Assembly (NCBI RefSeq): GCF_026151205.1
Contig: NC_087072.1
Span: 14,548,169-14,608,168, forward strand
DNA length: 60,000 bases
Source of the DNA: Bolinopsis microptera
Taxonomy: Eukaryota; Ctenophora; Tentaculata; Lobata; Bolinopsidae
Direction of reading: 5' to 3'
This document shows positions 11,223 through 60,000 of the stretch, piece by piece. Below the pieces are notes generated by a model that worked only from the letters and a program-made list of their open reading frames with translations, searched no databases and was not told where the DNA came from. Every line of letters begins with the position of its first letter. Positions within the stretch are counted from its first letter, which is position 1. The position numbers were made by a program, and so were the translations under genes.

Positions 11223-14200
11223 ATAGTTAGGGCAAGAGTTGATTTTTCTGTGAACAAATTCGTAACAAAGGTTTGTCTACAGGAATGTGTTGTCCATAGT
11301 CCCAGGAACCACCAAAAAAACCGTCCAGCTGAAACTTTTGGGCAAAAATTTGTATAGTCATTTTTCTCCAGGAACCCATACGCCCCACCCCTAATATTGG
11401 TTATTCGGCTCCCGAAGGTCTTGAGATCTCCATAGGGGGTGCAAAATGACCGCAATGGCCACATTATGGCAGGCGAATGATAGTTTCAGAACGATTGGGG
11501 CTTTATTTTTCGAAATAAATGGAATTTTTCGAAATTTTTCTCAATTTTATTGAAATTTCGAAAAAAATACACCAAATTATTTTTAACGCTTATTTCAAAT
11601 CTTACTCGGGAAATAACTTCAATTAACAAATATCAAGGTTAACTAACAAACAACAGATTATTGACCAACCCCCAGACAGCTATTCGACGGTACATGCTAC
11701 TCTGGTTGAATGTCTTAAGTTATCCTACAGTGAGCCGATGATAATCACATTCGATTTGCCATTGTGGATTAAGGCCACCCGAATAGTACTGGAAACTGGG
11801 ATGCATATTGTGGTCAGGGTTGGGGGCTTCCACACTCTCACGAGTTTTCTTGGCTGCATAGGCTATATAATGGCAGACTCGGGTTTAGAGGAGCTCATCA
11901 AACTCGTGTATCCTGGAGACGTCACGCATATATCGGATGGATGATCTTACTATAAAGCGTTGAGAGCCCACTTTCTGATCGACGCCGCTCTTTGTTGTTT
12001 CATTATAGAGGAAGAAGTTTACGACGATGAACTAGTAGACTTGGAAGGTTACATCAACAAATGTGTGAACGAAAATATAGGCGTTAACTTTAAGACTAAA
12101 TCTATTCAGGATCTATCAGAGAAAATAACTCTGCTTCTAAAGAACCTGTTTTCAAACAGTAGAACAGCAGCTCTATGGGTTACTTACCACAACATGATAA
12201 CACTAGTAAAGGACTTCATAAGAGCAGAGAGGTTGCACGACTACAATATGCATTTATCAGCAGTAGCTTTGATGCTGCCCTACTTCGCAGCAGCTGGGAG
12301 GGGACAGTATGCAAAAGCTTTAAGACTGTATTTGGAGCAGGATGCTATTTTTAAAGTCAAGTATGGGGCGCTTTAAAAGACCTTTAAAGTAACTGGGCTT
12401 CACACGGTTTGTTACAACGACCACGAGTGGGCCGGAGTGTGGCCTGACCTCTCCATAGAGCAGAGTCTTATGAGGGCAGCTAAATCTAGTGGTGGATTAA
12501 CAAGTGGAAGGATGCGTAATCGTGAGTCCGCTCACAAGTTATGGGTGGCCACCCTGAATCAGATGGCTTTAATAAATCAGTCTTTTGGAGATTCATTAGC
12601 TAATTCATCGAAGCGAGGAGTACCAACTAAAGCTGCCATCCACTCAGATCTTACCAAGTCATCAATCAAGAAAAACTGTGATGTATTTGGAAAATTATTA
12701 ACTTGGTTTAAAGTTACTGTCGACTTTACAGAATCCGAAGATAAGACTAAGTTAATATCTTTTTCGACTGGTCTTATATCACAGCCTGGGAACGATGAGG
12801 TGAATCCCGAGGAATGTTTGGCCGTTGGGGCTGTCCTTCAACGTGAGCTAGATGGGTTGACATTCATCGGTAAGATAAGTATCAAAGGTAAAGCAAAGAA
12901 CTTGACACAACTAAGAAAGCAGGTTAAAGTGAATAATAAAAGCGTTGCAGTCGATCCGTTGAAGTGTTTTAACCGTCTAGTCTTGGTTGCTGATAGAGAG
13001 ACTTCAATAGAGGAATGCCTAACATACGAGTTAACTGTGGTGCCGATGAGCTTATTTGATCAATATCAGATGATGAGGAAATCTAATAAGGCTGCTCTTG
13101 GTATAAACCAATCTACACTTAAATCTTTCAGCTTCACGATCCCACTAGTCATTGATGGAGGTTGGCTAATTCACCAACTAAGCTCATTTAAAGGGTGGGA
13201 CAGTTATGGTGTGGTAGCAATGGAGTACTTGAAGCTTATCCCTAAAAATCGGGAAGTTACTGTGATTTTTGATGGATATGAGCCTTCTACTAAAGATCAC
13301 GAGCACAAGAGGAGAGTAAAAGCGTTCTGTGCTAATATTGCTGTAAAAAAATCCACCTTTTGTACTGTCACCAAAACAAAATTTCTGAGCAACAACAATA
13401 ACAAAAAAGAACTGATCGACCTTATCTCAAGCATTTTTACTGTAAATGGTATTGAAGTGATCAGAGCTTGTAACGATGCTGATACTTTAATTGCAAAGAA
13501 AACATTGGAAATGTCATTCCTTGGCGATGTTGAATTGAAGGCAGAGGATACCGATATAGTTCAAGTCTATTAGTACATCATTTCAACAGTGACCATCACA
13601 ATGATATTTATCCAACAACGAAGAAGGGTAAATATTCAATCAAAGAAATATCAAGTCATCTAGATCATAAAGAAAAGGAGATACTTCTTCTAATTCATAG
13701 TATTTCAGGTTGTGATAGCGTCAGTGGACTGTTTGGTTTTAGCAAGGTTAAAGTGCTAAAGAAAGCTCTCACCTTTGATGAGCAAGGTCAGTTGGCTTCA
13801 TTGCTTTCGGTTAGAGAATCAAAAGAAAAGATTATTGAGGCAGGCCTCTGTTTCTTGCAGTACATTTATGGTGACAAGAAAAAGACTCTTTTTGCTTTGA
13901 GATTCCTAGCATACAATAGGATGGTAGCGAAAAAGAGTCTCAATCCGAATAGGCTACCTCCAACAATAGCTTCAGCAACGGAGCACATCCTTAGAGCTTA
14001 CTTACAGTACCATAACTGAGTCCTGCTTAACACTGACAGTCTGAATCACCTTGACTACGGCTGGAAATTGGCTCCTGGTGGCACTTACGAACCAGTTGCA
14101 CCAGAGTCTATTTTGAACCTTATATGTTGTAACTGTTCTGTGATCTGTCGATGTGGAACAGGCCTGTTTGACTTTCAGATGTTCATGTAGGAAATATGGC

Positions 14201-15088: not shown

Positions 15089-18000
15089 CATTATGGCAGG
15101 CGAATGATAGTTTCAGAACGATTGGGGCTTTATTTTTCGAAATAAATGGAATTTTTCGAAATTTTTCTCAATTTTATTGAAATTTCGAAAAAAATACACC
15201 AAATTATTTTTAACGCTTATTTCAAATCTTACTCGGGAAATAACTTCAATTAACAAATATCAAGGTTAACTAACAAACAACAGATTATTGACCAACCCCC
15301 AGACAGCTATTCGACGGTACATGCTACTCTGGTTGAATGTCTTAAGTTATCCTACAGTGAGCCGATGATAATCACATTCGATTTGCCATTGTGGATTAAG
15401 GCCACCCGAATAGTACTGGAAACTGGGATGCATATTGTGGTCAGGGTTGGGGGCTTCCACACTCTCACGAGTTTTCTTGGCTGCATAGGCTATATAATGG
15501 CAGACTCGGGTTTAGAGGAGCTCATCAAACTCGTGTATCCTGGAGACGTCACGCATATATCGGATGGATGATCTTACTATAAAGCGTTGAGAGCCCACTT
15601 TCTGATCGACGCCGCTCTTTGTTGTTTCATTATAGAGGAAGAAGTTTACGACGATGAACTAGTAGACTTGGAAGGTTACATCAACAAATGTGTGAACGAA
15701 AATATAGGCGTTAACTTTAAGACTAAATCTATTCAGGATCTATCAGAGAAAATAACTCTGCTTCTAAAGAACCTGTTTTCAAACAGTAGAACAGCAGCTC
15801 TATGGGTTACTTACCACAACATGATAACACTAGTAAAGGACTTCATAAGAGCAGAGAGGTTGCACGACTACAATATGCATTTATCAGCAGTAGCTTTGAT
15901 GCTGCCCTACTTCGCAGCAGCTGGGAGGGGACAGTATGCAAAAGCTTTAAGACTGTATTTGGAGCAGGATGCTATTTTTAAAGTCAAGTATGGGGCGCTT
16001 TAAAAGACCTTTAAAGTAACTGGGCTTCACACGGTTTGTTACAACGACCACGAGTGGGCCGGAGTGTGGCCTGACCTCTCCATAGAGCAGAGTCTTATGA
16101 GGGCAGCTAAATCTAGTGGTGGATTAACAAGTGGAAGGATGCGTAATCGTGAGTCCGCTCACAAGTTATGGGTGGCCACCCTGAATCAGATGGCTTTAAT
16201 AAATCAGTCTTTTGGAGATTCATTAGCTAATTCATCGAAGCGAGGAGTACCAACTAAAGCTGCCATCCACTCAGATCTTACCAAGTCATCAATCAAGAAA
16301 AACTGTGATGTATTTGGAAAATTATTAACTTGGTTTAAAGTTACTGTCGACTTTACAGAATCCGAAGATAAGACTAAGTTAATATCTTTTTCGACTGGTC
16401 TTATATCACAGCCTGGGAACGATGAGGTGAATCCCGAGGAATGTTTGGCCGTTGGGGCTGTCCTTCAACGTGAGCTAGATGGGTTGACATTCATCGGTAA
16501 GATAAGTATCAAAGGTAAAGCAAAGAACTTGACACAACTAAGAAAGCAGGTTAAAGTGAATAATAAAAGCGTTGCAGTCGATCCGTTGAAGTGTTTTAAC
16601 CGTCTAGTCTTGGTTGCTGATAGAGAGACTTCAATAGAGGAATGCCTAACATACGAGTTAACTGTGGTGCCGATGAGCTTATTTGATCAATATCAGATGA
16701 TGAGGAAATCTAATAAGGCTGCTCTTGGTATAAACCAATCTACACTTAAATCTTTCAGCTTCACGATCCCACTAGTCATTGATGGAGGTTGGCTAATTCA
16801 CCAACTAAGCTCATTTAAAGGGTGGGACAGTTATGGTGTGGTAGCAATGGAGTACTTGAAGCTTATCCCTAAAAATCGGGAAGTTACTGTGATTTTTGAT
16901 GGATATGAGCCTTCTACTAAAGATCACGAGCACAAGAGGAGAGTAAAAGCGTTCTGTGCTAATATTGCTGTAAAAAAATCCACCTTTTGTACTGTCACCA
17001 AAACAAAATTTCTGAGCAACAACAATAACAAAAAAGAACTGATCGACCTTATCTCAAGCATTTTTACTGTAAATGGTATTGAAGTGATCAGAGCTTGTAA
17101 CGATGCTGATACTTTAATTGCAAAGAAAACATTGGAAATGTCATTCCTTGGCGATGTTGAATTGAAGGCAGAGGATACCGATATAGTTCAAGTCTATTAG
17201 TACATCATTTCAACAGTGACCATCACAATGATATTTATCCAACAACGAAGAAGGGTAAATATTCAATCAAAGAAATATCAAGTCATCTAGATCATAAAGA
17301 AAAGGAGATACTTCTTCTAATTCATAGTATTTCAGGTTGTGATAGCGTCAGTGGACTGTTTGGTTTTAGCAAGGTTAAAGTGCTAAAGAAAGCTCTCACC
17401 TTTGATGAGCAAGGTCAGTTGGCTTCATTGCTTTCGGTTAGAGAATCAAAAGAAAAGATTATTGAGGCAGGCCTCTGTTTCTTGCAGTACATTTATGGTG
17501 ACAAGAAAAAGACTCTTTTTGCTTTGAGATTCCTAGCATACAATAGGATGGTAGCGAAAAAGAGTCTCAATCCGAATAGGCTACCTCCAACAATAGCTTC
17601 AGCAACGGAGCACATCCTTAGAGCTTACTTACAGTACCATAACTGAGTCCTGCTTAACACTGACAGTCTGAATCACCTTGACTACGGCTGGAAATTGGCT
17701 CCTGGTGGCACTTACGAACCAGTTGCACCAGAGTCTATTTTGAACCTTATATGTTGTAACTGTTCTGTGATCTGTCGATGTGGAACAGGCCTGTTTGACT
17801 TTCAGATGTTCATGTAGGAAATATGGCTTCAATTGTTTGCCAGCTTGTGGACGATGCCATGGTATGAACTGCACAAACATTAGACATGATGAACCTGAAG
17901 AACAAGCGAATTTTGATTAATATTAACTGTGTATTAATAATTGTCGTGGTACTTACTGAGAATACACATTTAAGATTAACTGTATTTGTTATTTGTAGAT

Positions 18001-33265: not shown

Positions 33266-34227
33266 ACTCTCACCTTGTAGACCCACCGCGCACGAGTGCT
33301 CGGCTGTATCGTGGCTTTCGCCCCGGCTCTTTCTAAATCGCTCGCCCAAACCGTAATAACAATTTCAACTTTTGCGCGTCTCCTAAATGCGCGTTAGTTA
33401 TCTGTGATAATTTAGCACCGGCGAACCACATGTTCTGCCTACTAGCAAAGTTCACTCAAAACGTTCCGCGCCCGCGGATAAGTCAATATTTGTGGTTTTC
33501 AGAGACCAGATATTGCCATATCTGGATCATTAAAAAGGCCACCTGATAAGTCTATACAGACATCAAAACTCTTTTTGTCAGTAGTCAGAGTGGTTCGTTG
33601 TCATTTAAGTAGTAGCACTTCCTTATTGCTAATATATAATTGGGAAAGCAAAATAATAGACTTCAAATATGCTTTCCACATTGGAAAATACAATTCTCTT
33701 TATATCTCCAATATTATTGGAAAATACAGTACACTTATCTCCAGTATTAATGGAAAATACAGTACACTTATCCCCAGTATTAATGGAAAATACAGTACAC
33801 TTATCCCCAGTATTAATGGAAAATACAGTACACTTATCCCCAGTATTATTGGAAAATACAGTACACTTATCTCTATTATTATTGGAAAATACAGTACACT
33901 TATCTCCAGTATTATTGGAAAATACAGTACACTTATCTCCAGTATTATTGGAAAATACTGTACACTTATCTCTAGTATTATTGGAAAATACAGTTTACTT
34001 ATCTCCAGTACTATTGGAAAATACAGTATTATTGGAAAATACAGTACACTTATCTCTAGTATTATTGGAAAATACAGTACACTTATCCCCAGTATTATTG
34101 GAAAATACAGTACACTTATCTCTAGTATTATTGGAAATACAGTACACTTATCTCCAGTATTATTTGAAAAATACAGTACACTAACCTACAATATAATTAA
34201 TGGAAAATACAGTACAGTTATCTCCAG

Positions 34228-34692
34228 CAGTAATCGACCGGGATTCCCGGCGCCGTGAAATCCCGGCGCCGGGGGAGCTATTTCTTCCCGGCCCCGGCCC
34301 CGGCCGATTTTCAATTTTTGCCGGGAATTTGGCCGGGAATTTTTGATCGAAATCGGACTAAAACTTTCATATAAATCTTAAAATGGATTTTCAATTTTGA
34401 AAGGATGATGTCCAGAGTGCCAACTTTTATTTACTGTTTCAGCTGAACAAAATTATTTTACCAAAATATATATGAAATCCAATTACCTTCTAAACTGTTC
34501 AATTGATACGAACATTATATTGTCATGTAAAAATAAGTTCAGATCCTAAGTCCTGAAAAATTCTAACTTGGCCGTGGATTTATTAAATTCACGGCTCCGG
34601 CCCCGGCCAAATTCCAGAACGGCCAATTCCCGGCCCCGGCAAAATTTGGACATTCCCGGCCCCGGCCAAATCCTACCCCCGGTCGTTTACTG
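34228..34692. mobile_element. Non-autonomous hAT element, 465 bp, with 8-bp target duplication
   Basis: Terminal inverted repeats CAGTAATCGACCGGG and CAGTAAACGACCGGG (reverse complement of the right end) match at 14 of 15 positions. The flanking duplication ATCTCCAG is perfect (34220-34227 and 34693-34700) and is itself part of the minisatellite unit. Subterminal CCCGGCCCCGGCC repeats lie inside both ends. No transposase. The 8-bp duplication and CAG start are hAT hallmarks. Confidence 0.9.
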
Positions 34693-34905
34693 ATCTCCAG
34701 TATTATTTGAAAATACAGTACACTTATCTCCAGTATTATTGGAAAATACAGAACACCTATCTCTAGTATTATTGGAAAATACAGTACACTTATCTCTAGT
34801 ATTATTGGAAAATACAGTACACTTATCCCCAGTAATATTGGAAAATACAGTACACTTATCTCTAGTATTATTGGAAAATACAGTACACTTATCTCTAGTA
34901 TTATT

Positions 34906-35321
34906 ATTATTATTATTATCAAACATGTCAATCTTACAAATGTCAACAATCCTAAAATAATTTAGAACCTAAACGTGATCCTTTGTAAGATTATATGTCC
35001 CAAAACTCAAATTGACTTGTACTCAAGTATAAAGTCGAACAATTTACTCCAGTAACCACGGTTACTAGCAAGTTCTCTCAAATGAAGAATATCATCATAT
35101 ACGACTCCAGCAAGATGAAACGCTTCCAGAGGTCAACCTTCAGGTGGTGTAGGAGGTTACGTCTGTGAGCCCCGAGTCTACCAACTTCACTACACATCTC
35201 GACAGCAAAGCACAGCGCAGCTTGAGCTGGTGATCTTTCATCGCTCCTCAGTATGTGTCCTAGCATCTTCCACCTAGATAACTCAGCACGCTCAGACATA
35301 GGGGTAGAGTTACTCTGTTTG
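34906..35321 (-). mobile_element. 5'-truncated LINE fragment inserted in the minisatellite
   Basis: On the minus strand it encodes the C-terminus of a reverse-transcriptase ORF (SERAELSRWKMLGHILRSDE at 35240-35299), nearly identical to 52394-52570. It ends in a (TAA)n tail at 34906-34919. The flanking repeat TATCTCTAGTATTATT (34890-34905 and 35322-35337) fits a LINE target duplication. It is the empty-site reference for the insertions at 50527 and 52080. Confidence 0.85.
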
Positions 35322-36825
35322 TATCTCTAGTATTATTGGAAAATACAGTACACTTATCTCCAGTATTAATGGAAAATACAGTACACTTATCCCCAGTATT
35401 AATGGAAAATACAGTACACTTATCTCCAGTATTATTGGAAATACAGTACACTTATCTCCAGTATTATTGGAAAATACAGTACACTTATCTCCAGTATTAT
35501 TGGAAATACAGTACACTTATCTCCAGTATTATTGGAAAATACAGTACACTTATCTCTAGTATTATTGGAAAATACAGTACATTTATCTCCAGTATTATTG
35601 GAAAATACAGTACACTTATCCCCAGTATTATAGGAAAATACAGTACACTTATCTCCAGTATTATTGGGAAATACAGTACACTTATCTCCAGTATTATTGG
35701 AAAATACAGTACACTTATCTCCAGTATTATTGGAAATACAGTACACTTATCTCCAGTATTATTGGAAAATACAGTACACTTATCTCTAGTTTTATTGGAA
35801 AATACAGTACATTTATCTCCAGTATAATTGGAAAATACAGTACACTTATCCCCAGTATTATTGGAAAATACAGCACACTTATCTCTAGTAATATTGGAAA
35901 ATACAGTACACTTATCTCCAGTATTATTGGAAAATACAGTACACTTATCTCCGGTATTATTGGAAAATACAGTACGCTAATCTCCAGTATTATTGGAAAA
36001 TACAGTACACCTATATCTCTAGTATTATTGGAAAATACAGTACACTTATCTCTAGTATTATTGGAAAATACAGTACACTTATCTCTAGTATTATTGGAAA
36101 ATACAATACACTTATCTCCAGTATTAATGGAAAATACAGTACACTTATCCCCAGTATTAATGGAAAATACAGTACGCTAATCTCCAGTATTATTGGAAAA
36201 TACAGTACACCTATATCTCTAGTATTATTGGAAAATACAGTACACTTATCTCTAGTATTATTGGAAAATACAGTACACTTATCTCTAGTATTATTGGAAA
36301 ATACAATACACTTATCTCCAGTATTAATGGAAAATACAGTACACTTATCCCCAGTATTAATGGAAAATACAGTACACTTATCTCCAGTATTATTGGGAAA
36401 TACAGTACACTTATCTCCAGTATTATTGGAAAATACAGTACACTTATCTCCAGTATTATTGGAAAATACTGTACACTTATCTCTAGTATTATTGGAAAAT
36501 ACAGTTCACTTATCTCCAGTACTATTGGAAAATACAGTATTATTGGAAAATACAGTACACTTATCTCTAGTATTATTGGAAAATACAGTACACTTATCCC
36601 CAGTAATATTGGAAAATACAGTAGGTACACTTATCTCCAGTATTATTGGAAAATACAGTACACTTATCTCCGGTATTATTGGAAAATACAGTACGCTAAT
36701 CTCCAGTATTAATGGAAAATACAGTACACTTATCTCCAGTATTATTTGAAAATACAGTACACTTATCTCCAGTATTATTGGGAAATACAGTTCACTATAT
36801 CCAGTATTATTTGAAATTATAGCAT

Positions 36826-37729
36826 ACTATCAGCGTGGTTCGCTGTAAGTGTACTCTCAATAGCATACAGCATTTGTGTATTAATAATCTATCAATTTGT
36901 TTGAGGTTGCTTTAACAACAATCCCAATAATGCTCGCTTGCTGTTTTTCTGAATATAATATTTGGGTAAGCAACTAATCCATTTTAATGACCTACTTGAA
37001 CAATGAACAGATACATTTTTCCTCTTTTAAGCGATCGGAGACTCATAATAAGTGTTACGTAGAACAGGGAATCAAGAGGAGATGGTTTCATTCATTATAC
37101 TGTATTAAAATGAGAACAACTTGTTTTGTAAAAAAGAAAAAATTAATAAAGCAATAAATGATGCAATAAAATAAAACAAAAATCAGATTTAAATTCATAA
37201 AATTCGACCAAATCATACATCATTCTCGAAATCAGAGTCTGATCCGAAACCATAATTTAGTTTCCTTTCGGGAAACTTTTTCGCTTTTTTTTGCTCGCTT
37301 TGGGAGCGAATCTGCGAAGTCCGTCCGCTTTTCTGCCCGAGAAGTCGTTGACAACAGTGACAAATCGTCCCGAGTTGCTGTTACCGTCATGTTAATCTTT
37401 GTCATCTCCGAAAGCCTGAATGTTAAATGTTTTGATACATCGTCGAAAAAATATATGTTCATTGCAATACACATATTTGAACAGCAAGATAGTAACATAT
37501 ACATAACATTAGCAGCGGTCATTAGCAACGGTCATTGTCCAGCTATAAAATACAAATAATATTTTTCAGTTTCACATAGAAACTGTATCACATGACAGTT
37601 GACACGTAAAGAACTGATTTTCACAATTTCACCTTTTCACAAATTCATAAATTGCTCGTTTACATGTTTACATATATAATAACATCTATAAACAAAAGAG
37701 CACCTAAAGAGGCTCAGCAAAGTGCTGGC
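36826..37729. other. Region without a gene
   Basis: AT-rich. A 98-codon minus-strand ORF at 37232-37528 has no recognisable domain. Part of this may be the 3' UTR of the LINE remnant on the minus strand starting at 37730. Confidence 0.5.
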
Positions 37730-39240
37730 CTATTTACGCTTACGAAGACTCATTCGTTCAATATGTCTCAAAGTAAATAAACTCCTCCATCCTACTCTAT
37801 CTCTTGCTAAGTTCACTAAGTTGGTAAAATCATCTTCGTTTTTCAAATAAATTTGTCTCTTAAATAGGTCCTTTTTCACAATAATATCATACAAATTAGT
37901 CCTATGTCTACCCACTCGTCCCTTTAGCGTTTGACATCCTAGTGTAGCAAATAACAGAGACTGGTAGGCAGGCGTGTCGTTGTCACTGCGTAGAACATGA
38001 CCTAGCATTGTCCACCGTGCCTTTTCCACTCTCTCGGAAAGGGGCCTGGTCTGGGTACGAGCGTAGAGGGCCTTGTTAGATATTGAGCTAGGCCAATAGA
38101 TGTGTAGGATGCGCTTGAGGTGCTTCCTCTGAAAAACATCTACAGACTCTAGAACATGCTGAGGTACGGCCCAGCAGCAGCAGTTGTACAGGAGCACTGA
38201 TACTACTAGTGAGTCGTAGAGTTTGATCTTTCTCTTTTCAGTTATCTGACTCCTCTCTGATCCCTGGCACCACAGCTTGTCAAATGACCAGAAGGCGGTG
38301 TTAGCTTTATTTATTCTATTAGTAACATCCTGCTCTGATCTAAGCTTAGTACCAAGAAGCGTCTCGTTTCTCCACTCCTCTTTTCCTCTTAGCTCATTAT
38401 CCCACTCGTCGCAGGCACCAACTTCTTCTAAATACACTCTGGTAAACTTTGTCTTTGTGTCATTGACAAAGAGACTCCATTCACTGAGAATATTCTTGGA
38501 GATCTGAAAGATATCCTGTAACTCCTCCATATCTTCACCAATCTTCTTTACATCGTCTGAATAGCCGGACTCAAGAGGCATGTGGTTATCGGCTATCGGA
38601 GGGTTGGGTCTTGAGGGGAGGACTGCTCTTATGTGCACTACAGCTCCAGCTAGATTGAGGGTAAACAATTTACCAGCTGTGCTGTCTCCTTGGGAGGCTC
38701 CTATGTTGAAAGAGAACATCTCTGAGTCAGTAGAACACACTCTGGCTACTAGAGTGGTGTTAGCCATGAGGTATTGTACAAGCCTCAGGTCGTCTCTGGA
38801 GCATCCTGCAGCTTCTAGTAGTCTGATTGTTGTACCTCTGCGGATGGCATTGAAGGCAGCTGACATGTCAATACTCACTTTGTTCCATTCAAACTCCTTC
38901 TTCATTACTACAAATATGAGCATGCTCTGTGCCCAAACTAGGTCGGCACAGCTCCTGCCAGCTTTGTAGGCAGCTTGGAACGGTCCGGTGAAGTTGTCCA
39001 CAGCTCTCTCTATTCTGTTTAGCACTATCAGTGACAGGATCTTTCTAGAAACATTCAGCAGGGTCAATGGTCATATCGACTTAACTGGGCCGCGAGTTTT
39101 ACCAGGCTTAGCCAGTGGTGTAAGGATGCCTGCTCCTATTGCTTCAATGTGAATGTTTTTCTCGAAAGACTCGTTGAACACTTTAGCTAGCTCTTCATGA
39201 AGGAGGGGGTTGTTCAGGGCTTTCATGACCTCGCATGTTT
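37730..39240 (-). pseudogene. Non-LTR retrotransposon reverse transcriptase, 5'-truncated, one nonsense codon
   Basis: Minus-strand frame. It begins near 39240 (VMKALNNPLLHEELAKVF), runs to a TGA at 39072-39074, then stays open in the same frame for 445 codons to 37730. RT motifs: PLTLLNVSRKILSLIVLNRI, FQAAYKAGRSCADLVWAQ, IDMSAAFNAI, GASQGDSTAG and GYSDDV (the YxDD box, usually A/V at x). The C-terminal half has LYDSLVVSVLLYNCCCWAVP and RWTMLGHVLRSD, as in the fragments at 34906 and 50454 but from a different subfamily. The endonuclease domain is absent. Confidence 0.85.
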
Positions 39241-39288
39241 ACATGGTGATTGTTAATTTTTTTTAAACCTTTGTGTTAAAGTGTTAAC

Positions 39289-40375
39289 TTGTTAAATATT
39301 CACTTTATCTATCTACTTTTGTTACTTTTGTACGCAGATGACACTCAACTGTACATTGAGTTTAACCCACTATTTCGAGATCTGTCAACAATCGAAGAGA
39401 GAATAACAAATTGTTTTGAAGATATTAAGACCTGGATGACCCAAAATAAACTCAAACTGAATCAAAACAAAACAGAAGCTCTTGTAGTACAGACCAAGAA
39501 CAGTTACTCTTCATGTCCAGTCGATTCAATACAACTTGACAATGCAGCTGACCCTGTGGATGCATCCCGCACAGTGAAAAGTTTAGGTGTCCTATTTGAT
39601 CAATTCCTAACATTTGAAGATCAAATAAATTCAATTATCAGTTGCTGCAACATCCATCTGAGGAACCTTCGAGTTATAGGCTCAAAGCTTAACTATGATC
39701 TAAAAAGACAGCTCATTCACTGCTTGATCTTTTCAAAACTAGACTACTGCAATGGACTCTTATACGGTTTACCCGATCTTCTCATAAAGAAACTCCAGAA
39801 GGTACAAAATTCCTGTGTTCGATTCTTGTTTGGTTGGAAAGCTATCAAAAAATGGGACAGTGTCACTCCATTCCTGAAAAAAGCCCATTTTCTTCCAATA
39901 CGACAACGAATAGAGTATAAGATTGCTCTAACCGTGTTCAAATGTGTCAACAACATAGCGCCGGAGTATATCACCAAATGTATTGACATCAAGAGTCAAC
40001 CTGTACGTGTACTAAGAACTGAAGAAGACTATTTCCTCCTAAATGTTCCTCCTATTTCAAACTATAGTAAAACCGAGAGAAGTTTCAGCTACTGCGGACC
40101 CTCTGTTTGGAATCAGCTTCCTTATCAATTGAGAACACTAACTGATATCGTCTTATTTAAAAAGAAACTAAAAACTCATCTCTTTGAAAACGTATTTGTA
40201 TAAGTATCATGTATTACCTTTCTCATAAAATCCATACTTCATAAAAATAAGTTCTTATGTACATGTTACTCATGAGTCGCTTTAGATGGTTTGAACTGAA
40301 TCTTTGGGTTTTGAGTTCTTTATGGCTATAAAGCGATGTATAAATTCCTACTTATTATTATTATTATTATTTAGT
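39289..40375 (+). pseudogene. CR1/L2-type LINE, 5'-truncated, intact 3' end
   Basis: The open frame 39316-40203 starts just before the catalytic YADD box (LLLLLYADDTQLYIEF). It continues through the thumb and C-terminal region (NKLKLNQNKTEALVV, LGVLFDQFLTFEDQI, LDYCNGLLYGLP, VQNSCVRFLFG, HFLPIRQRIEYKI, YCGPSVWNQLPYQLR, FKKKLKTHLF). The 3' UTR ends AAGCGATGTATAAATTC followed by a (TTA)n tail at 40352-40371, the classic CR1/L2-clade terminus. Everything upstream of YADD is missing, so this is a truncated insertion abutting the minus-strand LINE remnant. Confidence 0.9.
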
Positions 40376-42545: not shown

Positions 42546-42959
42546 AGAGTTATTATAAGAGACTATTTCATTCTATAATCATTGTTTTTAACCTATTTAC
42601 GATTTCGTTTCATTTTTTGTGACAATGTAAACATCAATTGATCTTAACTTGCATCAACTACATTGTCATCATATGATAAAGTTTTCCCGCCTTTCAAACC
42701 AAAATCAGATATAAATAATTCGCCCAAAATTTAAAATTCCATATATTGTGACAGAATTAACCTCATTTCCCAATAAACAAGTGCCTGTATTAGCTAACTA
42801 TTCGAAACAAAATATTTTAGGTTTTTGAGGACACCTCACAGTAGAATAGAGGTATGGTATTCTGAGTGTGACAAAGTTACCCAAATATTGGCTTGTAACC
42901 GTTCGATGTAAATGAGCTTTTGTCATCATTAAAGTCTTACATATAAGTTACATATAAAC

Positions 42960-43652
42960 ATGTCCAAGTGCTGCTACATACACTTCAAACCCACCATGGC
43001 AGGTTCTAAGTTAGAGACTTTATCACACCCTGAAGTTGTATTAACTATAGACAACTTTCCAATCAAAAAGGTTTCATCCGCAAAATTTCTGGGTGTTATA
43101 ATTGACGAGAACCTATCATGGGAAGAGCACATTAAAGCTCTTAAGCGAAATCTAAATCATTCCACATCCACTTTATGTAGACTTCGCTGCTCCCTTCCAG
43201 AATTTCTACACCAACAATTATATTATACCCTGTTCGAATCACATCTTTCCTACTGTATATCTGTATGGGGTGGGGCAGCGAAACAACGTATAAGCTCATT
43301 ATTTACTGCTCAGAAGTACTGTCTCAGAGTACTATTTGGTGACAGGCTGGCATACCTTGACAAGTTTAAGACTTGTGCACGTACTAGGCCTATAGGACAC
43401 CAGAAACTTGACCAAAAAGTTTTCATAAAAGAGCACACCAAACCGATATTTAAGCATAATAATATTCTAGCTATACAAAATCTCTATACATACCACAGTT
43501 ACCTCGAGCTCTACAAGATAATGAAATTCCGTGCTCCAATATCCTTACATGAGGGTTACACATGTTCCTCGAGGAAACCCTGCCTTCTAATCTGTCAGGC
43601 AGACCCACCTGACAATCACAACACTAGATCAACCAAAATTTTTAACATTTAA
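42960..43652 (+). pseudogene. LINE reverse-transcriptase C-terminal fragment
   Basis: A 230-codon frame with KVSSAKFLGVIIDENLSWEE, HLSYCISVWGG, FTAQKYCLRVLFG and THTRST-like (HNTRSTKIF) motifs. This is the region after the YADD box in jockey/RTE-like ORF2 proteins. The RT palm motifs and endonuclease are absent, and the first Met is internal to the family. It belongs to a different LINE group from the two remnants to its left. Confidence 0.8.
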
Positions 43653-52338: not shown

Positions 52339-53104
52339 TGAAGAATATCATCATACGACTCAAGCAAGATGAAACGCTTCCAGAGGTCAACCTTCAGGTG
52401 GTGTAGGAGGTTACGTCTGTGAGCCCGGCCCCAAGTCTACCAACTTCACTACACATCTCGACAGCAAAACACAGCGCAGATTGAGCTGGTGATCTTTCAT
52501 CGCTCCTCAGTATGTGTCCTAGCATCTTCCACCTAGATAACTCAGCACGCTCAGACATAGGGGTAGAATTACTCTGTTTGTAGAGGGTATCTTTGGACAT
52601 CATACTGCGTGGCCAGCTGACATTCATGATCTTTCTGAGGTAGTTACGGTGACATGCATCTATTTTGTCCCAGTACGATTTAGGCATTCCCCAGCAACTA
52701 GAGTTATACATGAGGATAGATACTACTTGGGCCTCATAGACCTTCAGCTTCTTCTGTAGGGGGATCTTACTCTGGCACCAGACCTTCTTGAAGTTCTGGA
52801 ATGCTACATTGGCTAACATGATTCTTCTGGTGACATCTTTCCTACTTTCTAGCAGAGAACCCAATAACTTGCTACTGCACCATTATAAGTATAATGATAG
52901 TTGATATCCGACCTTAAAACATAAGTTGTGTCATTCATCTGTCCAAGAACACTAAGCGACATTGTAATTCAGCCGATTTGAAAAAGACTTAAAATTGAGA
53001 TTATTACCGTGTTGAGTGCTTGTAAAAATTTAATTTCTGTGTCGATAAATCCTTATTTTCGTGTTTTATTTCCATATTATAAACTAACCCACTTTCTGAT
53101 TAGA

Positions 53105-57120: not shown

Positions 57121-57290
57121 ACGCACTTCGGTTTGAAGTCTTAAACTCACTTTTTCTACATTATAATCTTACACTCTTCAGTTTCGTGAGTCTTTATAAC
57201 TCTTCGCTTTCACAGTTAAAGTGTCTGCTACACTGCTCCAGATTTTCACAAACATGTAAGTCTACTTTAATATCGTACTTCTCTTTTATT

Positions 57291-57360
57291 CGATCGAAAT
57301 GATGCTCTTACACGTTAGACTACTGAAAAACCATGTAGACAAAAACACTTTCTGATCAAC
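57291..57360 (+). ncRNA. SNORD104: C/D box snoRNA, predicted guide for the LSU site of human Cm1327
   Basis: Intron 57256-57420. Box C AATGATG (ATGATG at 57299), box D' CTGA at 57323, box D CTGA at 57352, GATC/GATC flanking pairing. The D' guide GTTAGACT (57314-57321) complements AGTCTAAC of the conserved LSU segment. The fifth base upstream of D' (G at 57318) then faces the C that corresponds to human 28S C1327 by my count from the SNORD18 site A1313. SNORD104 is the known human guide. The rRNA sequence and numbering are from memory. Confidence 0.7.
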
Positions 57361-57538
57361 TCTATAACACTCCGTACTTTGTTGCTCCCTTCGATCCGAT
57401 CTTACACCCTGAATCTTCAGGAGCTGTCTGAATAATAACACAAGTCATAGGAATTGTGGACAGTACAGTGAACAGATTGGTCTCAATGTCCAAGGTGCGT
57501 TAAGTTTCAAAGATATTACAATTTAAATAGCCACACTT

Positions 57539-57607
57539 TGTAACGTGATGATACTTGACTAGAGTCTCAGAAATATTATTTGATCGATAAGTTGCTACTG
57601 ATTACAA
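57539..57607 (+). ncRNA. C/D box snoRNA, paralogue 1 of a pair
   Basis: Intron 57495-57669. Terminal stem TTGTAA/TTACAA brackets box C GTGATGA (57545) and box D CTGA (57598). An internal GACTAGAGTCTCAGA holds a probable D' (CAGA). GACTAGAGTC is complementary to GACTCTAGTC, which I recall as an invariant LSU rRNA stretch. The methylated base is not assigned because the D' border is ambiguous. Confidence 0.75.
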
Positions 57608-57753
57608 CATTTTTATAAGTCTCCGATTCGCTTCTGATCTGTCACAATCTGACGATATTATCGTTACAGCCGAAACGGAGAGAACTGAAGATGGGACGCT
57701 CTGAATCCATTATGGTAAGTCAAGTTATGGTTAAGATGACAACTTCCCTCTTT

Positions 57754-57827
57754 TTAAAGTGATGATTTGACTAGAGTCTCAGATAAACCCTGATCGACAA
57801 ATTGTTAACGCTCCCTCTGATTACAAC
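57754..57827 (+). ncRNA. C/D box snoRNA, paralogue 2 of the pair
   Basis: Intron 57715-57883. Box C GTGATGA (57759), the same GACTAGAGTCTCAGA block, a GATCGA C'-like block, and box D CTGA (57817) followed by TTACAAC. It shares guide and boxes with 57539-57607 but differs between them, so it is a diverged local duplicate. Its D-box guide (TTAACGCTCCCT) differs from the paralogue's. Confidence 0.75.
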
Positions 57828-58013
57828 TTTTCTTAATTTTTCCCCTCAAACTTAATCCGTTATTTTTACCATTTTCTCCTCAGAAGTAAACATTGAAAGA
57901 CATCTACCTCTATGGCGTTATTAAAGCAGATTTCCAATCTCGAAACAGAACATTCTCGTAGCCTTAAGAAGGTATGAATATTATTAAAAGTTAACTCCTA
58001 TTTTTATGAGCTA

Positions 58014-58081
58014 CGTCGAATATGATGGTTTCAAGACGGGACTGATTTACATGATTGATATCTCACTTTGCTGATACGACA
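58014..58081 (+). ncRNA. SNORD21: C/D box snoRNA, predicted guide for the LSU site of human Gm1303
   Basis: Intron 57972-58142. Box C ATATGATGG (ATGATG at 58022), D' CTGA at 58042, C' ATGATTGA at 58051, D CTGA at 58071, terminal pairing GTCG/CGAC. The 13-nt D' guide GTTTCAAGACGGG complements CCCGUCUUGAAAC of LSU rRNA. The fifth base before D' (C at 58037) faces the G of CCCG, which falls at human 28S G1303, the SNORD21 site. Function: 2'-O-methylation with fibrillarin. Numbering from memory. Confidence 0.85.
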
Positions 58082-58261
58082 TTCCAAACTAGTCCTACAA
58101 TCTTGCGTTCTAGTGTAGTTTATTAAACTTATTTATCTTCAGGGTTAGACGGAGAAGAACTCTTGATTAATCTGAATCTTGGAATTACCGCGACCAGCTC
58201 CTTCTATCTTGTGTGACGGTAAGTCTTTCTTAGTCTTACAATCGAACGTTTAATACAGCTA

Positions 58262-58348
58262 TTTACTGATGACAATGCATAGGGACATATGATTAATATG
58301 ATTACCACACTATATATTTGATAGAGATATTAAATATTGTCTGAACAT
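58262..58348 (+). ncRNA. Possible C/D box snoRNA, weak
   Basis: Intron 58219-58409. Box C CTGATGA at 58266 and box D CTGA at 58341, with a weak flanking stem. D' and C' are not clear and I recognise no rRNA target. Supported mainly by position, one per intron. Confidence 0.4.
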
Positions 58349-58499
58349 TGGTTTAATATCTTGTTATGAATCGTATTTTACCGATATCTTAACGCACTTT
58401 ATATTTCAGATTTAACTACAATATAAGAAACACCTGGTAGTGAAGCTCTATTTTGATGGTAGGTCTAATTCCAACTTAACTCTCCCTTGCTGTGTTTTT

Positions 58500-58620
58500 A
58501 TAACATGATGACTTTGAAGGCATTTGTTTGAAGGAATATTTGGATCCGAACCGTTTCAAGTTTTTTGAACCGTTTCAATTTCCACTTTTCTTGTATGAAA
58601 TTACTTCTATCTGATTAAAC
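58500..58620 (+). ncRNA. Possible long C/D box snoRNA
   Basis: Intron 58459-58692. Box C ATGATGA at 58505 and box D CTGA at 58611. It is longer than its neighbours (about 110 nt) and contains GAACCGTTTCAA twice (about 58548 and 58567). No rRNA target recognised. Confidence 0.45.
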
Positions 58621-58797
58621 TGTACAGAATATTAAAACATATTTGATTAAACTCAGCGCGACCAGCAATTTTAATATCACCTTCATTTTCAGGAGTAACA
58701 TGAACAATAGCTCCAATAATATCACGGAGACTTCCCTCTCCTGAATGCTATATGATTGTAAAGGTGAGGATTATTTTTACAGCGTATCATTTGAAAT

Positions 58798-58926
58798 GTC
58801 AGATAGAGGGGTGTCGATCTCTTCAATGGATCAATTCCTGTTTAAATTTGACTAAATAACATCAGCCTCACTAAAACATTGGACTTGTCATTTTAGCAAG
58901 TTCGATACCTGTCTCGGGGCACAGTA
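58798..58926 (+). ncRNA. H/ACA box snoRNA, copy 1
   Basis: Intron 58764-59001. 129 nt. The 5' hairpin is closed by GTCAGA (58798) and TTTGAC (58847-58852). The hinge AAATAA (58854) fits ANANNA. The 3' hairpin has outer stem GCCTC/GGGGC and inner stem GGACTTG/CAAGTTC, enclosing an open pocket. ACA lies at 58921-58923, three bases from the end. All H/ACA hallmarks are present. A pseudouridylation guide role is known for the class; the target is not determined. Confidence 0.85.
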
Positions 58927-59123
58927 TTATGTTACTTCCTTTTCAATTTCTGAAGAAAGTTAACCTGAATACAAGATAGGTTAACAATCTTATATTTTCA
59001 GAACCTCTCGACACTCAAAGCTGGTTACGAAGATCCGAACTGTCTAGAAGCTTTTATCTGCTACTTGATCATTGCAGCAGGTTTGTTACATATATTGTTT
59101 ACTCTTTAATCCTCTAATATTTT

Positions 59124-59197
59124 AAAATTGTGATGAACCTTGCTACTCTTGACTGTTCGAATGACGACACTTTCTACCAAGATCGCTGAATTAAATC
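59124..59197 (+). ncRNA. C/D box snoRNA, LSU rRNA guide candidate (copy 1)
   Basis: Intron 59081-59255. Box C GTGATGA (59130), D-box CTGA (59186), AATT/AATT flanking pairing. ACCAAGATC before box D and TTGCTACT near the 5' end are complementary to neighbouring parts (GATCTTGGT and AGTAGCAA) of one conserved LSU segment as I remember it. The same snoRNA recurs from 59942. Confidence 0.7.
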
Positions 59198-59358
59198 GAC
59201 ACTGCAATACTTATTCAGCCAGAAAAACCTTTTCACTGATCGAATTTACCTACAGGCGGACGGTACGACGATATCTTTCAACCGAAGTACTCTTCCTTAA
59301 CTCTAACAAGGTAAGCTTGGCAACAACAACAAAAAACAAGTTTTTTGTTATGAAACTT

Positions 59359-59487
59359 GTCAGATAGAGGGGTGTCGATCTCTTCAATGGATCAACTCCT
59401 GTTTAAATTTGACTAAATAACATCAGCCTCACTAAAACATTGGACTTGTCATTTTAGCAAGTTCAGTACCTGTCTCGGGGCACAGTA
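59359..59487 (+). ncRNA. H/ACA box snoRNA, copy 2
   Basis: Intron 59311-59554. Nearly identical to 58798-58926 (three substitutions seen: T to C in the 5' hairpin, GA to AG beside the 3' pocket). ACA at 59482. Homology begins at GTCAGA and ends within a few bases of the ACA box; the flanks are unrelated. Confidence 0.85.
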
Positions 59488-59689
59488 CTATATAATCACA
59501 TGCTTCAGAAATAGAGTTTGTTAATAACGGGATTTTAAACCTTTAAATTTTCAGAGATACACCGGCTTTCGACTACTAATTTCGCAACTTGGAACTAGAC
59601 TGATAGCTGCTGTGATAACACAACTCTCAGTTCACAACTTCGAGGTATTTACTTTCTCATTATGTAGCTTTAAGCAGTTTCCAACCTCT

Positions 59690-59774
59690 GATATCATGAT
59701 GACAGTAGTACATCTTAATTGTCTCTGAAGACACCTGTACCACCAAGACCTGACAATTTGATAGTAATATCAAG
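59690..59774 (+). ncRNA. C/D box snoRNA, LSU rRNA guide candidate
   Basis: Intron 59645-59820. Box C ATGATGA (59696), D' CTGA (59725), D CTGA (59750), outer pairing TGATAT/ATATCA. The 11-nt stretch TACCACCAAGA before box D complements TCTTGGTGGTA of LSU rRNA as I recall it, the same region as the 59124 snoRNA. Confidence 0.75.
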
Positions 59775-59941
59775 TACACATTTTAATTCTACACTTCATA
59801 ACACTCTCAATGTATTTCAGTGTTCATAAATAACCTGAACAGTTGATGTGATCACCAACTCCTCGACCTGTGCTCCAGCCACGATTTGGAATCACTTGGT
59901 AAGTTACTAAACCTTTTCATCGGTTTCTAAATTAATTCCAA

Positions 59942-60000
59942 CACAAAATGATGAACCTTGCTACTCTTGACTGTTCGAATGACGACACATTTCTACCAAG
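59942..60000 (+). ncRNA. C/D box snoRNA, copy 2 of the 59124 type, cut by the window edge
   Basis: Box C ATGATGA at 59948, then ACCTTGCTACTCTTGACTG and onward as in 59137-59180 with one inserted A. Box D would fall beyond position 60000. Confidence 0.75.

Follow-up and report, generated by a model that had tools for sequence, protein, structure and literature searches.

A putative non-coding host gene with one candidate snoRNA in each of 28 introns, seven of them with a compensated kink-turn box pair

Introduction

Can a stretch of DNA that standard annotation leaves empty hold a gene whose products lie in its introns? This question is raised by positions 57121 to 60000 of the 60,000-nucleotide (nt) stretch analyzed here (the window; C1:14548169-14608168 of a 264.65 Mb assembly). 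A preliminary description had placed there a non-coding gene of eleven short exons without a shared open reading frame (ORF), in which nearly every intron holds a boxed, stem-closed small nucleolar RNA (snoRNA) candidate, with both the C/D and the H/ACA class in one unit, and which runs off the window. It had also expected the stretch to look empty to gene finders, and this agrees with a search at Rfam gathering cut-offs, which yields just two tRNAs in the window. We followed the gene into the downstream DNA (piece L003; window position = L003 position + 55831) and compared it with the rest of the genome. The locus, named gene 1, is interpreted as a dedicated U-snoRNA host gene of the UHG/SNHG kind, with a probability of roughly 0.94.

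Results

Gene architecture

With the downstream DNA joined, gene 1 spans window positions ~57121 to ~64830 (extended numbering) and thus passes the window end, as had been described. The hand model consists of 29 short exons and 28 introns. All 28 introns have GT-AG borders and end in CAG, and an exact GTAAGT start is found in 12 of the 28 (4 of the first 11); an ATTAAA signal is present at 64808, near the 3' end. Each intron holds one candidate: 25 are of the C/D type, two are near-identical H/ACA RNAs and one resembles U17/SNORA73, so that both classes do occur in one unit. The eleven exons proposed for 57121-60000 were recovered with GT/AG borders, together with ten complete introns, every one of which holds a snoRNA candidate (eight C/D, two H/ACA), and the start of the eleventh, which the downstream DNA completes. 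The C/D introns are 165-196 nt long in 21 of 25 cases and 222-250 nt in the other four; the H/ACA introns measure 238 and 244 nt and the U17 intron 341 nt. Just past the 3' end of gene 1 lies a 366-bp satellite array (L003 from ~9080, L004:1-7502; window ~64911 on), with 20.5 copies at 99% identity in L004.

The first eleven exons and introns are listed below; exon borders are those of the splice model.

57121..57255, +: exon 1; donor GTAAGT at 57256; 5' end provisional
57299..57355, +: I1, C/D candidate; box C ATGATGC, box D CTGA, 65 nt before the 3' splice site; no terminal stem scored; weak Rfam matches only (SNORD78, E 2.8; SNORD52, E 9.2)
57421..57494, +: exon 2
57545..57601, +: I2, C/D, SNORD52-like; Rfam 26.8 bits, E 0.0081, gathering score 45; D' guide GACTAGAGTC pairs with a 28S piece of the same genome
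57670..57714, +: exon 3
57759..57820, +: I3, C/D, second SNORD52-like copy; Rfam 27.3 bits, E 0.006
57884..57971, +: exon 4
58022..58074, +: I4, C/D, sn668-like; Rfam 25.4 bits, E 0.032; D' guide TTTCAAGACGGG, 1 nt before CTGA, with a 12-bp pairing to a working human 28S reference (set 1, see below)
58143..58218, +: exon 5
58266..58344, +: I5, C/D; box C CTGATGA, box D CTGA; weak snoMe28S-Cm2645 match, 21.5 bits, E 0.51; inner D' ATGA and C' ATGATTA, with a 9-bp guide at D'; an inner C box was picked by the strict C/D scan
58410..58458, +: exon 6
58505..58614, +: I6, long C/D candidate (110 nt); weak SNORD15 match, 17.1 bits, E 1.1
58693..58763, +: exon 7
58798..58926, +: I7, H/ACA by fold, twin of I9; hinge ATAACA, pocket in the second hairpin, ACA at 58921-58923
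59002..59080, +: exon 8; weak donor GTTTGT
59130..59189, +: I8, C/D, SNORD24-like; Rfam 29.6 bits, E 0.037, gathering score 41; D guide CTACCAAGATC, 1 nt from CTGA
59256..59310, +: exon 9
59359..59487, +: I9, H/ACA by identity and fold, twin of I7; ACA at 59482-59484
59555..59644, +: exon 10
59696..59753, +: I10, C/D by boxes, position and guide; D guide TACCACCAAGA, 1 nt from CTGA; target site shifted 2 nt relative to the I8 site
59821..59898, +: exon 11; donor GTAAGT at 59899
59948..60000 (cut by the window end), +: I11, C/D, second SNORD24-like copy; D box starts at 60005 in extended numbering

A stretch of exon 5 resembles, by eye, the complement of the 18S 530 loop.

Splice sites and box spacing

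As a control for chance, donor and acceptor sites were also chained with generic matrices that carry no snoRNA information. On the gene strand this gave 26 introns, of which 20 coincide with those of the hand model, against 2-3 on the opposite strand. A harsher chaining penalty left 15 introns (11 identical to the hand model) against one. On 22 background strands the mean was 2.5-3.2 introns, with one outlier of 20 'introns' that turned out to be a 366-bp satellite array. Chance splice sites were rejected on the basis of the opposite strand, the background strands and shuffled sequences.

The boxes are placed regularly with respect to these splice sites. All 25 C/D introns have a D box, CTGA or ATGA, whose end is separated from the 3' splice site by 63-78 nt. 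The distance from the 5' splice site to box C is 42-57 nt in 22 of them, and 70, 127 and 101 nt in I20, I26 and I27, respectively. A distance of about 70 nt to the 3' splice site is given as the optimum for C/D snoRNAs in two papers (PMC8178906; PMC8162545). When introns were required to combine a D box ending in that 63-78 nt interval with a box C that can pair with this D box, 24 of the 28 qualified; the two H/ACA introns, the U17 intron and I19 did not. Dinucleotide shuffling, repeated 1000 times, gave 0.92 qualifying introns on average and 5 at most. Under a strict C/D scoring scheme, values of 18 or more were obtained for 15 of 28 introns, for none of the 28 antisense introns, for 1.0% of shuffled introns and for 1.8% of random 175-mers from the window.

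The splice chain and the spacing bear on the alternative that gene 1 is a polycistronic or independently promoted snoRNA cluster in the style of plants or yeast, with splice borders that are coincidental. Non-intronic clusters are established in other eukaryotes. Such a cluster would, however, leave unexplained the 26 chained introns on one strand, the narrow spacing to the 3' splice site in every C/D intron and to the 5' splice site in most, and the uniform intron length, and we regard this alternative as extremely improbable.

Coding content

The spliced model is 2236 nt long and its longest ATG-initiated ORF encodes 104 amino acids (aa). This exceeds the mean of 65 aa for shuffled sequences, and ribosomal protein genes host many snoRNAs, sponges included (PMC3412847); both points would suit a protein-coding gene, for instance a ribosomal-protein-like one, with incidental intronic snoRNAs. 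However, 23 of 500 shuffles reach 104 aa, the ORF extends into the triplicated exons E15-E17, which are copies of one another, and the next ORF has 83 aa. On these ORF lengths and shuffles, no protein search of the ORFs having been made, a coding gene was rejected and is rated as highly unlikely; the exons of the host gene are without a convincing coding signature, in line with the earlier statement that they share no ORF. E15-E17 and E27-E28 are recent exon copies; otherwise paralogous introns are alike and their exons are not.

Rfam matches and the H/ACA and U17-like RNAs

Relaxed Rfam searches, in which some matches were weak, assigned C/D candidates to SNORD52 (I2, I3), sn668 (I4), SNORD24 (I8, I11), SNORD18 (I14-I16), SNORD33 (I20, I26) and SNORD88 (I22, I24, I25); their E-values lie between 0.0024 and 0.96, and the remaining relaxed matches are at chance level. 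I18 gave a full-length SNORA73 match (RF00045; 70.9 bits, E 5e-16), below the gathering score of 74.

The RNAs of I7 and I9 are 97% identical. Their minimum free energy folds show a hairpin, a hinge, a second hairpin and ACA, with the ATAACA hinge and the ACA read from the sequence. The pocket fits, by eye, the human 28S of set 1 (see below) around GAGACAGGUUAGUUUUA, a site of the type of yeast snR34 and human SNORA65.

Guide-rRNA pairing

Because the genome's own 28S copies are broken, guides were tested against two ribosomal RNA (rRNA) sets. Set 1 is a working human rRNA reference that was not taken from a database (3878 nt, with 28S as selected pieces) and set 2 consists of the genome's own 18S (L010:7674-9403) and incomplete 28S pieces. 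The ribosomal DNA on C5 (L010, L011, L012) looks broken: a run of N follows the single near-complete 18S, and 28S is present as several divergent pieces. A guide was counted when a duplex of at least 11 bp, with at most one G-U pair, ended either directly at a D or D' box or one nucleotide away from it.

With set 1, guides were found for 7 of the 15 C/D families, where 100 shuffled rRNAs gave a mean of 0.32 and a maximum of 2. Lowering the duplex length to 10 bp left 7 of 15 (shuffle mean 1.22, maximum 5), and at 9 bp 9 of 15 were found (mean 4.21, maximum 8). With set 2, 4 of 15 families had an 11-bp guide (control mean 0.59, maximum 3), a number reached by 0 of 200 shuffles. At 11 bp, 7 (set 1) and 4 (set 2) of the 15 families thus have a box-adjacent guide with at least the roughly 10 nt expected of a C/D snoRNA, and none was found for the rest.

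A compensated kink-turn box pair

The introns with a CUGA box carry the box C core UGAUG in 17 of 18 cases. In I20, I22 and I24-I28, seven of the 25 C/D candidates, CUGA is absent from the expected place, which is occupied by AUGA, and box C reads UGAUU. In the kink-turn, box D contributes its first base to a pair with the final base of the UGAUG core (PMC6461891). UGAUU together with AUGA therefore means that the kink-turn G-C pair has become U-A, and the tally for the 25 C/D candidates is 17 of the G-C type, 7 of the compensated U-A type and one mismatch. The same division is found among the 24 introns that satisfy the box-and-position rule (17 and 7), and the U-A type alone had a mean of 0.71 and a maximum of 4 in the shuffles. 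The same UGAUU/AUGA pair occurs inside I5, as C' and D'.

By descent the seven U-A candidates fall into three groups (I20/I26/I27, I22/I24/I25 and I28), and they therefore represent at most three independent cases of the swap. In I22, I24 and I25 a long block is conserved from the C box to AUGA, and conservation is strongest between the two boxes. An 11-bp 28S guide ends 1 nt before AUGA in both the genome's own 28S and that of set 1, and the 28S site AAUUAAAACAA adjoins the AUGA box. I27 has lost the guide present in I20 and I26 and also retains a fragment of a second snoRNA. Within the I26-I28 region (L003:8021-8768), I27 looks like a chimaera with a 5' half similar to I28 and a 3' half similar to I26, which suggests recombination between neighbouring introns.

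PMC6461891 describes the same double change in the Guillardia theta nucleomorph (GtNM-R12 to R14) and refers to archaeal mutants that regained binding once the pair was restored. A full-text literature search on this compensation found that paper alone, and no animal case was seen among the titles and opening abstract lines of the papers listed in related searches.

Further candidate host loci in the genome

When the whole gene was searched against the same genome, the matches were gene 1, another U17 on C3 with 80% identity, and one isolated fragment. A match to I10 at C3:8456253 lacked host-like surroundings and was taken as an isolated copy.

A scan for C/D introns, which found 21 in gene 1, none on its opposite strand and 4 on both strands of the rest of the window, was applied to further loci. 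A candidate second host gene (gene 2), on the minus strand of C3:15801000-15830999 (L022, L020, L023), has 31 C/D introns in 11.1 kb and none on the opposite strand, and its gaps hold the U17 intron and more intron-like stretches. The splice-only chain gives 31 introns there against 5-9 antisense. Rfam matches in its middle 10 kb (L020) are SNORA73 (62.5 bits, the second U17 copy), SNORD53/92, SNORD14 (U14-like), SNORD18 and SNORD36. A third candidate (gene 3), on the minus strand of a 10-kb piece, C6:12732000-12741999 (L032), has 14 C/D introns and none on the opposite strand, and several of its snoRNAs are present in three or four copies. Its splice-only chain is weak (6-9 introns, with a score inside the background range). 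Six control loci yielded three C/D introns in all, counting both strands. SNORD36 was the sole match above its gathering score (33.1 against 30) among the scanned parts of genes 2 and 3.

A pattern search across the genome yielded 61 matches, and the reversed pattern yielded 31; the matches include clusters of four at gene 1, four at gene 2 and three at C6. Further near-identical pattern pairs were seen on C4, C11 and C13. The sequence features thus point to two further candidate loci of the same one-snoRNA-per-intron design. The U-A type was not convincingly seen in genes 2 and 3, where the C/D-intron scan scored this type lower; a U-A-type intron in the 3' part of gene 2, an unconvincing stretch of 305 nt, was not counted.

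Other features of the window

The ORF translations at 11627-14019 and 15254-17646 look identical and suggest a recent tandem duplication. A minisatellite-like array occupies 33482-36826, where many frames read IGKYSTLISS-type repeats. ORFs resembling, by eye, reverse transcriptase fragments lie at 37730-39070 (-), 39280-40203 (+), 42933-43652 (+) and 52394-52882 (-).

Discussion

How would such a gene work? The architecture, the boxes and their spacing, the guide complementarity of part of the RNAs and the lack of a coding signature were computed directly, and from them we infer transcription, splicing, particle assembly, trimming, modification and the fate of the exons. Gene 1 would be read by RNA polymerase II into a single transcript of ~7.7 kb that is spliced 28 times, each excised intron being the precursor of one snoRNA. 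Assembly of the C/D particle on the intron while this is still held by the spliceosome would account for the position of the D box, 63-78 nt upstream of the 3' splice site. The intron would then be debranched and trimmed by exonucleases down to the boxed RNA, and the spliced exons would be a by-product that is probably degraded. The 25 C/D RNAs are predicted to guide 2'-O-methylation of 18S and 28S rRNA and the I7/I9 RNAs would be two copies of one H/ACA pseudouridylation guide. The U17/SNORA73-type RNA of I18 presumably acts in 18S processing.

Several observations weigh against this interpretation. The boxes of the preliminary description were found, but its stem-closed candidates were borne out only in part: terminal stems are short or mismatched, and none was scored in I1, I10, I11, I26 and I27. 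In gene 1 every Rfam match stays below its gathering cut-off, and the box-and-position rule was drawn up from these same introns after inspection. I19 has a mismatched pair, with box C UGAUU and box D CUGA. The pairing evidence is weaker in the genome's own rRNA: at 10 bp 5 of 15 families had a guide, a number reached by 9 of 200 shuffles, and the pairing of I15/I16 to 18S, one of the four at 11 bp, lies off the SNORD18 site and may be due to chance, in which case three families remain, equal to the control maximum. The guides of I4, I8/I11, I10 and I14, which pair with the human 28S of set 1, and the pocket site of I7/I9 (no full match) were unmatched in the genome's own 28S pieces; I12, I17, I19, I27 and I28 lack a box-adjacent 9-bp guide in its own rRNA.

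The mismatch in I19 and the lost guide of I27, together with the duplication or triplication of several families, could also be read as signs of a decaying array of duplicated, mostly nonfunctional snoRNAs. Against this, diverged paralogues keep boxes and spacing while their flanks differ, and 24 of 28 introns follow the box-and-position rule. We consider decay very unlikely as an account of the locus as a whole and retain the interpretation as a dedicated host gene, which goes beyond the preliminary description in its 28 introns and in the non-canonical compensated box pair of 7 of the 25 C/D RNAs.

Two glutamate receptor ORFs were compared with the PDB: the top match of one was ML032222a iGluR of the ctenophore Mnemiopsis leidyi (E 5e-54), and kainate 2 receptors ranked first for the other. 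A literature search combining ctenophore and snoRNA returned no paper on ctenophore snoRNA genes by title. We think it likely that this early-branching animal, probably a ctenophore, encodes many of its snoRNAs in a few giant dedicated hosts (28 introns in gene 1, at least 31 C/D RNAs plus U17 in gene 2 and at least 14 in gene 3), one of which carries a group with a G-C to U-A kink-turn change for which our searches found no report other than that from algal nucleomorphs. If true, a few long non-coding genes supply many of the rRNA guides of a non-bilaterian animal, and the design is therefore not confined to insects and vertebrates. The three loci offer some 70 candidate guide RNAs (28, 31 plus U17, and 14). 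The U-A type provides a natural test of whether the core proteins of animal small nucleolar ribonucleoproteins accept U-A in place of the usual G-C. Annotation at Rfam cut-offs misses such genes: gathering scores were reached nowhere in gene 1 and by a single match in the portions of the other two loci that were scanned.

Comparison with known systems

In mammals, SNHG genes such as GAS5, SNHG1, SNHG3 and SNHG12 are host genes of this kind; SNHG3 hosts U17 and SNHG12 mixes both classes. Mammalian host genes start with a 5' terminal oligopyrimidine (5'TOP) tract and their spliced RNA undergoes nonsense-mediated decay. Gene 1 resembles the SNHG genes in having non-coding exons and intronic snoRNAs, and differs in that they hold fewer snoRNAs per gene. 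SNORD18, SNORD24, SNORD33, SNORD52, SNORD88 and U17 are spread over many hosts in mammals.

The Drosophila Uhg genes (Uhg1-5, 7 and 8) have no recognisable ORF and are dedicated to snoRNA production (PMC4430873). As in gene 1, there is one snoRNA per intron, two Uhg introns excepted. The same paper gives at most 16 introns per Uhg gene and 48 snoRNAs across all seven, whereas gene 1 has 28 introns and the second locus 31 candidate C/D introns. From this likeness we regard gene 1 as a new, unusually large case of a known kind of host gene. Uhg-46E3 likewise is a non-coding precursor that mixes H/ACA and C/D RNAs, in equal numbers there; unlike gene 1 it is a small cluster antisense to eiger, is termed atypical and is not described as placing every RNA in a separate intron (PMC5932544). 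The compensated pair of box C AUGAUU and box D AUGA is shared with the Guillardia theta nucleomorph (PMC6461891); that case is from an algal nucleomorph, whereas here 7 of the 25 C/D RNAs of one host gene in a probable animal carry it. Host genes of this design are known from flies and mammals; gene 1 is larger, and the swapped base pair in some of its guides is, as far as we searched, unusual.

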